A program made the translations under genes and the position numbers. The notes beneath the pieces were generated by a model that made no database searches, was not told the DNA's origin, and was given only the letters and a program-made list of their open reading frames with translations. This document shows positions 5,905 through 10,905 of a stretch of DNA of 64,000 nt, one piece after another. Position 1 is the stretch's first letter, and every line of letters starts with the position of its first letter. This stretch comes from Bacteroidota bacterium (GTDB taxonomy: Bacteria; Bacteroidota; Ignavibacteria; Kapaibacteriales; HRBIN21): positions 124,001 to 188,000 of the forward strand of contig JAUQPL010000003.1 of the NCBI GenBank assembly GCA_030550395.1, written 5' to 3'.

Positions 5905-7314
5905 ATGTTCTTCCGCCTTCTCTACTATGAGGTGTTAGCACAAGCTTCGTATGTGGTCGCCTGCGAGACAACGGGCGAAGCACTCGTTGTGGACCCGACA
6001 CGGGACGTGGATCGCTATATTGAGCTTGCCCATCGCCATGGGTTTCGGATAAGCGCTGTAACGGAGACGCACATTCATGCGGATTTCCTTTCAGGAACTC
6101 GCCAGTTAGCACACCAGACCGGTGCAACTGTCTATCTTTCAGGGGCAGGAACACCGGAATGGCAGTATAGCTGGGCATCGGAAGGAGCCATTCTCCTCCA
6201 CAATGGAGATGCTTTCCGGGTGGGGAATATGCTACTGACAGCCCTGCACACGCCGGGGCATACGCCGGAACATCTCTGTTTTGCGGTCACCGATCGCGGA
6301 CGAGGTGCAACCTATCCAATCGGCGTCTTTACCGGTGACTTTCTCTTTGTTGGAGATGTGGGACGCCCTGATTTACTGGAGAGTGCCGTAGGCGAGCAGG
6401 GAAAAGCGCAAGAGGCTGCCCATCAACTTTTTGAATCCTTGCAAATCCTGGAAACCTTCCCAGAGTTTGTCCAAGTCTGGCCTGGACATGGTGCAGGCAG
6501 TGCATGTGGCAAGGCTTTAGGGGCAATCCCGCAGTCTACCATTGGGTACGAACGACGCTACAACCCGGCGCTCCAGCTGCTTGCGGATCGGGAGCGCTTT
6601 ATTGCCTTTGTCCTTTCGGGACAGCCAGAGCCACCTCTGTATTTTGCTCGGATGAAGCGCCTGAACCGGGCAGGCCCTCCGTTGTTGGACAATTCACCGC
6701 AGCTACACCGGATGACGCCTCGTGAGCTTTACTCCTCTCAAGAGGAGCTCTGGATTGTGGATACCCGTCCATGGGAGCTCTTCCACCGCGCCCATTGGGA
6801 AGGGGCGCTTTTTGCTCCATTGACTCGGGCATTTCCGACGGTGGTAGCCTCATATGTCCCAGAAGGGGCTCCTATTGTGCTGATTATCTCCGAGGATGCT
6901 CTGCCTGAGGCGATTCGTCAGTTGATTCGTGTTGGAGTGGACTCTGTTGTTGGATTCGTGCGTCCCGAGGAAGTGGAGCAGTCGGGGATACCAGTGGTGC
7001 AGATTCCGAATGTAACGTTTGATGAACTGGCGGTGCTGTGGCGGCGTGAGCGGATAGCGCTGGTTGATGTACGGAACCACGATGAGTATAGAGCTGGTCA
7101 TATCCCAGGAGCCCTCCACGCACCGTATGTGCGGTTACCGGAGTACGTCAAGAGCTTGCCGCGGGAAGCGGAAGTAGTGGTATACTGTCAATCGGGGGAA
7201 CGTTCAGCGTACGCTGCGGCATTCTTACAGCGAGGAGGCTTTCGGGTGCGACTCTATCCCGGCGGCATGAGTGAATGGCTACGCCGTGGTGGGGAGGTTG
7301 AGCGCATTGGGTAG
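5905..7314 (+). CDS. MBL-fold metallo-hydrolase (persulfide dioxygenase-like) fused to two rhodanese domains
   Basis: TETHIHADFLSG and HTPGHTPEHLCF metal ligands; second rhodanese domain has VVYCQSGERSAYAAAFL; first rhodanese-like domain lacks the Cys loop. Confidence 0.9.
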   Translation: MFFRLLYYEVLAQASYVVACETTGEALVVDPTRDVDRYIELAHRHGFRISAVTETHIHADFLSGTRQLAHQTGATVYLSGAGTPEWQYSWASEGAILLHNGDAFRVGNMLLTALHTPGHTPEHLCFAVTDRGRGATYPIGVFTGDFLFVGDVGRPDLLESAVGEQGKAQEAAHQLFESLQILETFPEFVQVWPGHGAGSACGKALGAIPQSTIGYERRYNPALQLLADRERFIAFVLSGQPEPPLYFARMKRLNRAGPPLLDNSPQLHRMTPRELYSSQEELWIVDTRPWELFHRAHWEGALFAPLTRAFPTVVASYVPEGAPIVLIISEDALPEAIRQLIRVGVDSVVGFVRPEEVEQSGIPVVQIPNVTFDELAVLWRRERIALVDVRNHDEYRAGHIPGALHAPYVRLPEYVKSLPREAEVVVYCQSGERSAYAAAFLQRGGFRVRLYPGGMSEWLRRGGEVERIG

Positions 7315-8223
7315 TCGTTCAGCAGCTCGGAGTCGGGCGCTGCGGGCACGGGGGTTGCGATGAATTTCGTCTGCAGAGGGGCGCACAGGCTTGCGGGTCA
7401 GTAGACGGAAGAGTGGCATACGGTTTGTTGAATGCTTCTGTAGGAATTCTTTGACAAGCCGGTCCTCAAGGGAATGGTAGCATAGGACGACCAATCGTCC
7501 TCCAGGTGCTAAGAGGTCGGGAGAGCAGGCGAGAGTATCCCGGAGAGCCCCGAGTTCATCATTGACGGCGATGCGGAGGGCTTGGAAGATACGGGCTAAC
7601 GTCTTCCGGCGGTGGGGGGGAGGAATGACCTCCTCCACCACCGCCCGAAGATCGGCTGTAGTGCGCAAGGGAGCACTCCGCCGGCGCTGCACAATCCGAC
7701 GGGCTAATGCCCTTGCGCGGGGCTCTTCGCCGTAGCGGCGAAAGAGCGACGCGAGCTCTTCCTCCGATGCTGCAGCCAGCAGGGCTTCCGCCGTCTGCGG
7801 GCTATCGGGTCCGAAGCGCATGTCCAATGGAGCCCGCGCTCGGAAGGTAAACCCCCGCGCAGGGGTGTCTACCTGATGCCACGATAGCCCCAGATCGAGG
7901 AGGAAGCCCTGCACCTTCCCCCGTATATCGCGCAATAACTCGCAAGCCTGCCGGAAGTTCGCCTGCAGGAGGCGGAGTCTCCCCTGCTGAATTGCCTCAG
8001 CGAAACGGTGCCGGCAGTAAGTAATGGCATCGGGATCTCTGTCCATCCCGATGATATATCCTCCCTGCTGCAGGCGCTCTAATAGCGCCGCAGTATGACC
8101 TCCTCCACCAATGGTGCCGTCCACGTATATCCCGTCTGGAGTGGTATACCAAAACTCAACGACCTTTTCTACCATAACGGGAACGTGGTACGGCTGTGAG
8201 CCGTTGGAGTAAGTGCGCTTCAT
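7279..8223 (-). CDS. rsmH: 16S rRNA (cytosine(1402)-N(4))-methyltransferase
   Basis: YHVPVMVEKVVEF, DGTIGGGGHTAALL, RIFQALRIAVNDELGAL, CYHSLEDRLVKEF signatures. Confidence 0.97.
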   Translation of the reverse strand: MKRTYSNGSQPYHVPVMVEKVVEFWYTTPDGIYVDGTIGGGGHTAALLERLQQGGYIIGMDRDPDAITYCRHRFAEAIQQGRLRLLQANFRQACELLRDIRGKVQGFLLDLGLSWHQVDTPARGFTFRARAPLDMRFGPDSPQTAEALLAAASEEELASLFRRYGEEPRARALARRIVQRRRSAPLRTTADLRAVVEEVIPPPHRRKTLARIFQALRIAVNDELGALRDTLACSPDLLAPGGRLVVLCYHSLEDRLVKEFLQKHSTNRMPLFRLLTRKPVRPSADEIHRNPRARSARLRAAERLPNALNLPTTA

Positions 8224-8666
8224 GGCGATCGCATTACGTGAGCAGCAACTTCCTCATACGAGCGAGCAAATCCTGCCAAGTAGCGCTCAAATTCTTCAGG
8301 AGCCCAAAACTCTATGTGGTCAACCACGCCAACGATGGTGACCTTGGAATCGATACCAGCGAACTCCAAATGGCGGCGTGGAAGCATAATGCGTTGCTGG
8401 GCATCAAGCTGAACTTCCTCGCTCCATGCCAGGATCATTCGCAGGAAGAAACGCTCTTGCTCATCGTACTGATTGAGTCGGGAAAAACGTTCTTCGTACT
8501 TACGCCACTCATCCAGAGGGTAGGCCACAATGCACCGGTCAACTCCACGGGTAACGACAAATGTATCCTGTGCCTCTGGGGAAAGGCTGCGCCGCATCTT
8601 CGCTGGGATGTTGACCCGTCCCTTGCTATCCAGTGAGTAGGTCTCCTGTCCCTTGAAGAATGCCAC
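8220..8666 (-). CDS. mraZ: Transcriptional regulator / division cluster protein MraZ
   Basis: AFFKGQETYSLDSKGRVNIPAKMRR; start set at GTG 8666, which matches MraZ N-termini (ORF track starts at 8696); overlaps rsmH start. Confidence 0.9.
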   Translation of the reverse strand: MAFFKGQETYSLDSKGRVNIPAKMRRSLSPEAQDTFVVTRGVDRCIVAYPLDEWRKYEERFSRLNQYDEQERFFLRMILAWSEEVQLDAQQRIMLPRRHLEFAGIDSKVTIVGVVDHIEFWAPEEFERYLAGFARSYEEVAAHVMRSP

Positions 8667-8698: not shown

Positions 8699-8725
8699 GT
8701 GGGAGTATCTCCCACTTTCTCCCAC
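8699..8725 (-). promoter_or_regulatory. Putative MraZ operator: three GTGGGAG boxes (two direct with 10-bp period, one inverted)
   Basis: Minus strand reads GTGGGAGAAAGTGGGAGATACTCCCAC just upstream of mraZ; resembles known MraZ TGGG-N box arrays. Confidence 0.65.
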
Positions 8726-8917
8726 CGTAGCGAGCGCGAAAAACGGAAGCAGCCCAATTCAGTCATTTTCAAAGTCTACTTTGTCGGGTTGTAGGGGATA
8801 GCATAGTTCAGGATAAGCGTTTTTGAGCAAAAAATGCTTATTTTGAGCAAGGTTATTGCCGTTATCCAACGTTTACACTCTCCTCAGCGCATAGCAGGAG
8901 CAGTGGGAAGGGGGGAA

Positions 8918-8954
8918 CCTGAATATTTGTTCAGGAGACTGCGTAGTCCCTGAA
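8918..8954. promoter_or_regulatory. Putative LexA-like operator: CCTGAA-N6-TTCAGG perfect inverted repeat plus a further CCTGAA
   Basis: CCTGAA 8918-8923, TTCAGG 8930-8935, CCTGAA 8949-8954; another TTCAGG at 8807-8812; immediately upstream of the lexA -7 candidate. Confidence 0.55.
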
Positions 8955-8966
8955 AAGATTTTCCCA

Positions 8967-8974
8967 TAACTTTG
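8967..8974 (+). promoter_or_regulatory. Candidate Bacteroidota-type -7 element (TAACTTTG) upstream of lexA
   Basis: Perfect TAnnTTTG, 28 nt before the lexA ATG. Confidence 0.5.
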
Positions 8975-9002: not shown

Positions 9003-9689
9003 ATGGCACAGTTCTTCCAGCAAGACGACGCCTTGGGTCTTACCCCACGGCAGTTGCAGGTACTCCGCCTTATAGTGGAGAGTGTTGTCACGAAAGGATT
9101 CCCACCCACAATTCACGAGATATGCCAGCAGTTGGGATGTCGCTCTACGAATGCGGTATATGAATTCCTGAGAGCTTTAGAGCGGAAGGGCTATATCCGT
9201 CGCTTGGGAAGGGGGCGTGCTCGGAGCATTCAGTTGACGGAAAAGGTGTCAGGAGGCAGGATGATGCATCCTCTACCTCAAGGACGTTCAATACCCTTGC
9301 TTCCCTCGGGCGTTGTGTTAGAGCCTCTGCAGTTGTTCCGTATGCCCCAAGCGCATATCTTTATTGATCCCATGCTCTTTCCGGGGGAGGAGCTGTTCGC
9401 GGTGGTGGTTTCAGAGGGAGGGCTTCGGGAGGAGGGTATTTGGGCAGGGGATATCGTGATTGCGCGTCGTATTAGTGAACAGCTGACACCTGGTCAACTT
9501 GTTGTGGCGTGGGTTCATGGAACCCTGTTCGTGCGTTATTTGTACTCGCACGCTCATGGTTGGGAGTTAAGGGGGAGAGGGCGTCAGCCTCCCCCAATTC
9601 GTTTTGATAGTTCCTCCGATGTCGTTGTGCTTGGCTATGTCCTTGGGCTGCTTCGTCGCTTTGTTCATGAAACCTCCCTTGAGCGATAA
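9003..9689 (+). CDS. lexA: LexA-family repressor with apparently inactive S24 autoprotease domain
   Basis: LexA winged HTH (LTPRQLQVLRLIVESVVTKGFPPTIHEICQQLGCRSTNAVYEFLRALERKGYI) and S24-like fold (AGDIVIARRISEQLTPGQLVVAWVHGTLFVRYL); catalytic positions substituted. Confidence 0.85.
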   Translation: MAQFFQQDDALGLTPRQLQVLRLIVESVVTKGFPPTIHEICQQLGCRSTNAVYEFLRALERKGYIRRLGRGRARSIQLTEKVSGGRMMHPLPQGRSIPLLPSGVVLEPLQLFRMPQAHIFIDPMLFPGEELFAVVVSEGGLREEGIWAGDIVIARRISEQLTPGQLVVAWVHGTLFVRYLYSHAHGWELRGRGRQPPPIRFDSSSDVVVLGYVLGLLRRFVHETSLER

Positions 9690-9795: not shown

Positions 9796-10296
9796 ATGAA
9801 TCGTGGTGGCGTCATGTTCGGGATACTCGGGTTAAGCTTGCTCCTAGCATGTTCGGGGAATTCCAATGCGGAGAGGGTGAATACAGGGGTGGAACAGCCA
9901 AAGGAGAAAGGAGCGACGTCGGGATTACCGACCGTAGCAGAGGTTCCACCTGTAGCGGGTGTTCCGACGGCAACGCTACAGCGGGGTAAGCAGATCTATG
10001 ACTCCTACTGCAAGACATGTCACCAAAGTCAAGGACAGGGAATTCCTGGTGTTTATCCTCCTTTGGCAAAGTCAGATTATCTGCAGGATAAGCAAAAGGT
10101 TATTCGGGCGCTAGTTTTTGGACTTTCGGGTCCGATAACGGTTAATGGAAAAAAGTACAATGGCGTAATGCCGCCAGCGCCATACAATGATGAAGATATA
10201 GCAGCAGTACTAACGTATGTGTACAACAGCTTCGGCAATTCTGGAGGGGTCATCACTGCTGCGGAAGTAGCTGCAGTACGTAAGGCGGGCAAATAA
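9796..10296 (+). CDS. Lipoprotein c-type cytochrome
   Basis: Lipobox-like LLLACSG, CKTCH haem motif, downstream GVMPPAPYNDEDIAAV; start trimmed to ATG 9796. Confidence 0.85.
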   Translation: MNRGGVMFGILGLSLLLACSGNSNAERVNTGVEQPKEKGATSGLPTVAEVPPVAGVPTATLQRGKQIYDSYCKTCHQSQGQGIPGVYPPLAKSDYLQDKQKVIRALVFGLSGPITVNGKKYNGVMPPAPYNDEDIAAVLTYVYNSFGNSGGVITAAEVAAVRKAGK

Positions 10297-10431: not shown

Positions 10432-10905
10432 ATGCATTGGCGAGCCATTTTCCCATTTCTTGTTTTCCCTGTGTTGCTCGGTTGTGGTGGGGAAAAACCG
10501 GAGCAGTCCCGTGGTGGCGAACAAGGAACCAATGTGGCTTCTCCGGTGGCTGCTGGGGTTCCTGCTACAATGTTGCAACGAGGCAAGCAGATCTACGAGT
10601 CTTACTGTCGGACCTGTCATCAGGCGAATGGACAGGGTATTCCGGGAATGTATCCGCCGCTTGCCAAATCAGACTTTCTGCAGGACAAGCGTCGGGTAAT
10701 CCACGCATTGGTCTTTGGGCTGTCGGGTTCGATAACGGTTAATGGGAAGCAGTTCAATGGTGTTATGCCCCCAGCACCGTACAATGATGAGGATTTGGCG
10801 GCAGTGTTGACCTATGTCTACAACAGCTTTGGCAATCCTGGCGGGAGCGTCACACCTGAGGAAGTTGCAGCTGTTCGTAAAGCGGGCAAGCAAGCTCTGC
10901 AGTGA
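10432..10905 (+). CDS. Lipoprotein c-type cytochrome (tandem paralog)
   Basis: Lipobox-like LLGCGG, CRTCH motif; very similar to the preceding gene after the signal region. Confidence 0.87.
   Translation: MHWRAIFPFLVFPVLLGCGGEKPEQSRGGEQGTNVASPVAAGVPATMLQRGKQIYESYCRTCHQANGQGIPGMYPPLAKSDFLQDKRRVIHALVFGLSGSITVNGKQFNGVMPPAPYNDEDLAAVLTYVYNSFGNPGGSVTPEEVAAVRKAGKQALQ

Follow-up and report, generated by a model that had tools for sequence, protein, structure and literature searches.

In Escherichia coli, LexA reads the operator CTG(TA)5CAG with residues that include Ser39, Asn41 and Ala42 (PMC3091678), and its own promoter contains two operators (PMC7440846). It also represses the division and cell-wall (dcw) cluster through SOS boxes in the 5' region of the cluster (PMC3265435), and Bacillus subtilis LexA bound a site at the mraZ homologue in vitro (PMC3998124). 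The LexA of Synechocystis PCC 6803 lacks the Ala-Gly bond and Ser119 and is thought not to control an SOS response; its reported targets are carbon metabolism, the hox genes and crhR (PMC3091678). Non-canonical LexA proteins of the Bacteroidetes have a CI-like N-terminal domain and other motifs, but are cleavable and are true SOS repressors; the paper describing them does not mention Chlorobi, Ignavibacteria or Kapabacteria (PMC8565304). MraZ, a local regulator of the dcw cluster, is autoregulated; in M. genitalium its motif is confined to its own promoter, which heads the cluster (PMC8475190).

The protein characterized here is called LexA-R; no description of it was found in the open literature searched. 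Its gene lies in a 64,000-nucleotide stretch of DNA (the window) from a 1.94 Mb genome that is 99.3% complete and contains one RecA and one S24-family match in all. The original prediction left room for a second, cleavable LexA elsewhere in this genome, but the S24-family search found neither that nor any other S24 regulator. The genome is Kapabacteria-like, its named relatives being Candidatus Kapabacteria/Kapaibacterium MAGs and bacterium HR21; NCBI places Kapaibacterium in the Bacteroidota. The features of the locus are as follows:

7279..8223, minus strand: rsmH (mraW), downstream of mraZ (PF01795, 308 bits)
8220..8666, minus strand: mraZ, divergent neighbour with a GTG start (PF02381, 107 bits)
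8700..8726, minus strand: TGGGA repeats upstream of mraZ, MraZ-box-like (from the sequence)
8919..8934, no strand: putative operator 1, palindrome CTGAATATTTGTTCAG; CTGAA-N6-TTCAG has no other exact match in the 1.94-Mb genome
8950..8965, no strand: putative operator 2, a weaker copy, CTGAAAAGATTTTCCC, 31 bp downstream of operator 1
8967..8974, plus strand: TAACTTTG, putative promoter element directly after operator 2 (from the sequence; same arrangement in relatives)
9003..9689, plus strand: lexA-R, encoding the putative protease-dead LexA paralogue LexA-R, 228 aa (domain profile matches)
9036..9206, plus strand: LexA-type winged helix-turn-helix, residues 12-68 (profile match)
9315..9320, plus strand: former scissile bond, Val105-Leu106 for Ala84-Gly85 (alignment with E. 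coli LexA)
9414..9416, plus strand: Glu138 for Gly117 (alignment; Asp/Glu in 41/41 R-type proteins)
9420..9422, plus strand: Gly140 for catalytic Ser119 (alignment with E. coli LexA)
9534..9536, plus strand: Arg178 for catalytic Lys156 (alignment; Arg in 41/41 R-type proteins)

Like canonical E. coli LexA (TIGR00498, S24 family), its nearest solved relative by sequence, LexA-R consists of a PF01726 winged helix (73 bits) followed by a PF00717 S24-like domain (29 bits), both above the Pfam cut-offs; both profiles are also matched by all 11 members of alignment A3. The N-terminus is thus of the PF01726 type and not the CI-like helix-turn-helix of the Bacteroidetes proteins (PMC8565304), with which LexA-R has in common that they are S24 regulators of the same broad phylum. 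An AlphaFold2 model (pLDDT 86.6) has LexA structures as its top PDB fold matches and superposes on the LexA DNA-binding domain (1lea) with 1.0 A rmsd, and the S24/LexA fold of the modelled protein is intact, as had been predicted for it and for the winged helix. The E. coli DNA-contact residues S39, N41 and A42 are kept as S48, N50 and A51. With the LexA equivalog model TIGR00498, LexA-R scores 104.1 bits, below the curated cut-off of 110.95. Some other R-type members (LexA-R and the relatives sharing its signature) score better (best E-value: 1.2e-43), so that naming as LexA by that model is possible; R-type proteins matching it may be annotated "LexA, SOS repressor" although they are without the self-cleavage residues.

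As judged by alignment with E. coli LexA, LexA-R is without the self-cleavage apparatus: Val-Leu, Gly and Arg stand in place of Ala-Gly, Ser and Lys, at the very codons named in the original prediction. That prediction did not list a fourth change, Gly117 to Glu138. The Ala-Gly site and Ser-Lys dyad of a canonical SOS LexA are replaced clade-wide. Position counts were taken on order and class sequences, with 41 R-type proteins set against up to 65 canonical LexA proteins. At position 156, all R-type proteins have Arg (41/41) and nearly all canonical ones Lys (64/65); position 117 is Asp or Glu in 41/41 R-type while Gly is found in 62/63 canonical proteins, and position 119 is Gly or Ala in 37/41 R-type proteins (Ser in two, Thr in two) compared with Ser in 63/63. 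On these aligned sequences, the pattern at 117, 119 and 156 is far beyond chance. Since the pairing of an acid with Arg is invariant, a salt bridge between acid 117 and Arg156 may stand in place of the Ser-Lys dyad; a literature search found no data on K156R. The DNA-contact residues are also retained among R-type proteins, with Ser39 in 41/41, and Asn41 and Ala42 in 30/41. Two R-type proteins (L012 and L298) retain Ser119, yet have Arg at 156 and no Ala-Gly bond.

A relocated Ser-Lys dyad, which would have contradicted the prediction of a non-cleavable protein, was rejected because among R-type proteins the C-terminal domain has no further Ser or Lys position with a conservation of 70% or more. 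For most close R-type pairs dN/dS is 0.02-0.09 (0.22 in one pair, from f13), values that indicate strong purifying selection on these genes. A pseudogene was likewise rejected, and so was a sequencing error, against which the three changes themselves had been taken to argue, since the same substitutions occur in relatives and dN/dS is low.

Orthologues of LexA-R were found in four of the five other genomes of the genus, with identities of 42-67% within the genus, and in several families of the order; the gene was not found in the remaining same-genus genome (G005, 92% complete, 310 contigs). Order, class and phylum-wide searches together place R-type genes in 19 families of the phylum:

Order: f1, f3, f4, f5, f7, f9, f10
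Class: f13, f16, f23
Other classes: f33, f38, f43, f49, f52, f54, f56, f59, f61

In several genomes of the sister families f13, f16 and f23, an R-type gene and a canonical Ala-Gly/Ser/Lys LexA occur together. Trees were built with the catalytic columns removed and with sampling within the phylum. All R-type proteins fall in one clade (support 99), with canonical Ser-Lys LexA separate from it; support was 100/99 across 10 order and class families with two long-branch rows left out, and again 100/99 after nine families of other classes were added. The best reading of these trees is that LexA-R would represent an old, phylum-wide LexA paralogue branch. The original prediction therefore holds in describing a LexA-family protein without its self-cleavage apparatus, but not in its wording that this homolog "has lost" the apparatus, a loss confined to one lineage, because the R-type proteins form one ancient clade found beside canonical LexA in several genomes. 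The cyanobacterial precedent that it invoked is apt only in part: Synechocystis LexA does lack the Ala-Gly bond and Ser119, yet it is a lone diverged orthologue (PMC3091678), for which, unlike LexA-R, neither a paralogue clade nor linkage to mraZ is reported. The R-type clade would show a self-cleaving repressor turned into a stable local regulator early in the phylum, with its dead active site strictly conserved. A separate multiplication of canonical genes was observed at L387 (G260 C28) and in families f13, f18 and f28, where canonical LexA genes number two or three in several genomes, with one pair arranged in tandem.

By keeping to the coordinates of the gene, the original prediction left out its tell-tale surroundings, a divergent mraZ and a nearly private palindromic operator. 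MraZ is unrelated to LexA-R as a protein and is here the product of the divergent partner gene. This arrangement is found in 14 families, including f1, f3, f4, f16 and f23, and in each of the 11 R-type genes from other classes whose wider flanks were inspected. Among distinct sequences that extend 700 bp or more upstream, which are related and do not represent independent events, 36/54 R-type genes are divergent from mraZ compared with 0/27 canonical genes. The 18 R-type genes without a divergent mraZ belong to f5, f7, f9, f10 and f13. A conserved operon partner was rejected, as moved R-type copies have different neighbours in different families. The TGGGA repeats at 8700..8726 (minus strand) resemble MraZ boxes. 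At 8857-8877, a conserved GCCGTTAT followed by about TTTACA lies between mraZ and lexA-R in f1 and f4, and f16 and f23 have a similar stretch; this is perhaps the mraZ promoter.

The mraZ/lexA-R intergenic region usually contains a twin, and otherwise a single, palindrome TGAA-N6-TTCA. The CTG-N10-CAG frame of the window operator is common to E. coli LexA and LexA-R, and two operators are predicted in many R-type promoters, as in that of E. coli lexA. All five promoters of the genus place the two copies 31 bp apart. In f4 the distance is 41 bp, and where other-class families have two clear copies it is 31-34 bp in most of them; these distances approximate three or four turns of the helix. In other families a single copy is clear. 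Among mraZ-divergent order and class promoters, 13/18 have the palindrome with 0-1 mismatch, and summed mismatches were 23, whereas none of 300 dinucleotide-shuffled sets gave fewer than 53. Promoters of f16 have three mismatches and that of f3 L340 has four. The same mismatch test revealed no comparable excess upstream of canonical lexA or of moved R-type genes. No such operator was found upstream of the gene in f5, f7, f9, f10 and f13, where it lies away from mraZ, which means that not all families share the circuit. Elsewhere the palindrome takes the forms GTGAA-N6-TTCAC and TGAACA-N3-TGTTCA. A palindrome of another kind, around TAGTAGA-N8-TCTACTA and TTAGACATATGTCTAA, was recognized by eye at the canonical lexA genes of f16 and f23. 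In G036, lexA-R is on another contig, yet mraZ has kept two perfect operators next to it, spaced by 41 bp (L138:2965-3021, C570), which now also precede a kynurenine-monooxygenase-like gene; this suggests that the putative operators serve more than autoregulation there.

Genome-wide scans find the exact palindrome once in the window genome and twice each in G002 and G003, in every case at the promoter of lexA-R itself. With GTGAA-N6-TTCAC, matches were at the own locus only in G252, G256, G385 and G273, at one own-locus site plus others in G288 and G294, and only at other sites in G418 and G428; in f49, exact matches in G350, G462 and G344 are at the own locus. Other exact matches in f4 genomes fall for the most part within coding regions or next to unrelated genes, without recurrence, and a regulon in the order was rejected on this basis. 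The exact composite of operator and -7 pattern is mostly found at the gene's own promoter, and extra exact matches in G017, G165 and G100 are non-recurring. When one mismatch was allowed, the window genome had 49 sites compared with 18 for a control pattern; weaker, distant targets are possible. An SOS operator is expected upstream of SOS genes such as recA, but in the window genome the exact operator is solely at its own gene and the recA promoter has no obvious operator box (by eye). The operator is nearly private to the lexA-R/mraZ locus, which argues that LexA-R acts locally. On this evidence, R-type proteins would run no SOS regulon, and SOS reconstructions for the phylum that count them would be wrong. 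Away from lexA-R, a perfect palindrome with promoter-like ends on both sides, AATATACTGAAAATTTGTTCAGTATATT, was observed at L330:4129-4156 (G100 C71).

LexA-R is homologous to LexA, yet it fails as an SOS LexA on the defining features open to computation, the cleavage residues and an operator at SOS genes. It differs from canonical LexA in having no Ala-Gly, Ser or Lys and an acid at 117, in its separate clade, in its nearly private operator, and in having its gene divergent from mraZ. We consider it probable that LexA-R is an old protease-dead LexA paralogue that controls its own gene and represses locally at the head of the dcw cluster, without being an SOS switch. A LexA-R dimer would bind the palindromes between lexA-R and mraZ. 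The putative promoter element TAACTTTG (8967..8974) matches the Bacteroidota -7 element TAnnTTTG. Because operator 2 abuts this element of the lexA-R promoter, binding would repress lexA-R itself and keep its level constant. SOS LexA represses its own gene via promoter operators; for LexA-R, sequence comparison reveals conserved putative operators beside the -7 element, and negative autoregulation would be a possibility. With no Ser, Lys or Ala-Gly bond, RecA-stimulated self-cleavage is not expected; RecA would then not inactivate LexA-R, and there would be no SOS switching. LexA-R could thus be a homeostatic repressor at the divergent promoter region heading the dcw cluster. Its most likely second target would be mraZ-rsmH, an effect made plausible by the shared locus. 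The MraZ-box-like repeats, however, adjoin mraZ while the LexA-R operators adjoin lexA-R, so direct control of mraZ is unproven.

The main role could instead be mraZ/dcw control by a signal bound in the former active-site pocket, with autorepression secondary. The linkage to mraZ in 14 families and the two perfect operators kept beside mraZ in G036 after the gene moved away speak for it, as do the action of canonical E. coli LexA at its dcw cluster (PMC3265435) and the binding of LexA at a mraZ homologue in vitro (PMC3998124). The operators are nevertheless nearest to lexA-R, those in G036 have a possible alternative target in the kynurenine-monooxygenase-like gene, and no ligand is known; we regard this reading as tentative. 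Doubtful, in our estimation, is its extension to a phylum-wide division-control module, in which a pocket of acidic 117 and Arg156 would sense a signal other than DNA damage and LexA-R, with the divergent MraZ, would set dcw expression via twin, helically phased operators. LexA-R is a possible new regulator of mraZ and the dcw cluster, about whose control little is known beyond model organisms.

It is improbable that LexA-R still represses SOS genes and is removed along another route, for instance by a ligand or, in the manner of IrrE acting on DdrO, by a different protease. This would supply the SOS repressor otherwise missing from a genome with RecA and no other S24 regulator, but the exact operator is nowhere else in that genome, the recA promoter appears to lack it, and in other families a coexisting cleavable LexA has a different-looking palindrome in its own promoter. 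Control of the DdrO/IrrE type was rejected because none of five genus genomes has an IrrE-like M78 protease. Decay of a LexA whose function was lost in this lineage, the substitutions being drift, would fit the high divergence within the genus (42-67% identity) and the absence of the gene from G005 (92% complete, 310 contigs). We hold it to be very unlikely given the invariant Arg156 and acid 117 (41/41 each), the low dN/dS, the conserved DNA-contact residues and operator, and a single clade over 19 families. Self-cleavage by unusual chemistry, with Arg as general base or another nucleophile, deserves the least credence of all: a few members (L012, L298) keep Ser119, but most do not, the C-terminal domain offers no conserved alternative Ser or Lys, and the Ala-Gly bond is absent.

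The wider flanks of the window locus have features of their own. At 5905-8223, mraZ-rsmH is separated from the remaining dcw cluster, the next gene being a convergent metallo-beta-lactamase/rhodanese gene that overlaps the end of rsmH. Just downstream of lexA-R are two tandem paralogous c-type cytochrome genes (PF00034) at 9796-10296 and 10432-10905 on the plus strand, and one or two copies of such a gene are also found downstream of lexA-R in the same-genus loci L033 and L034.
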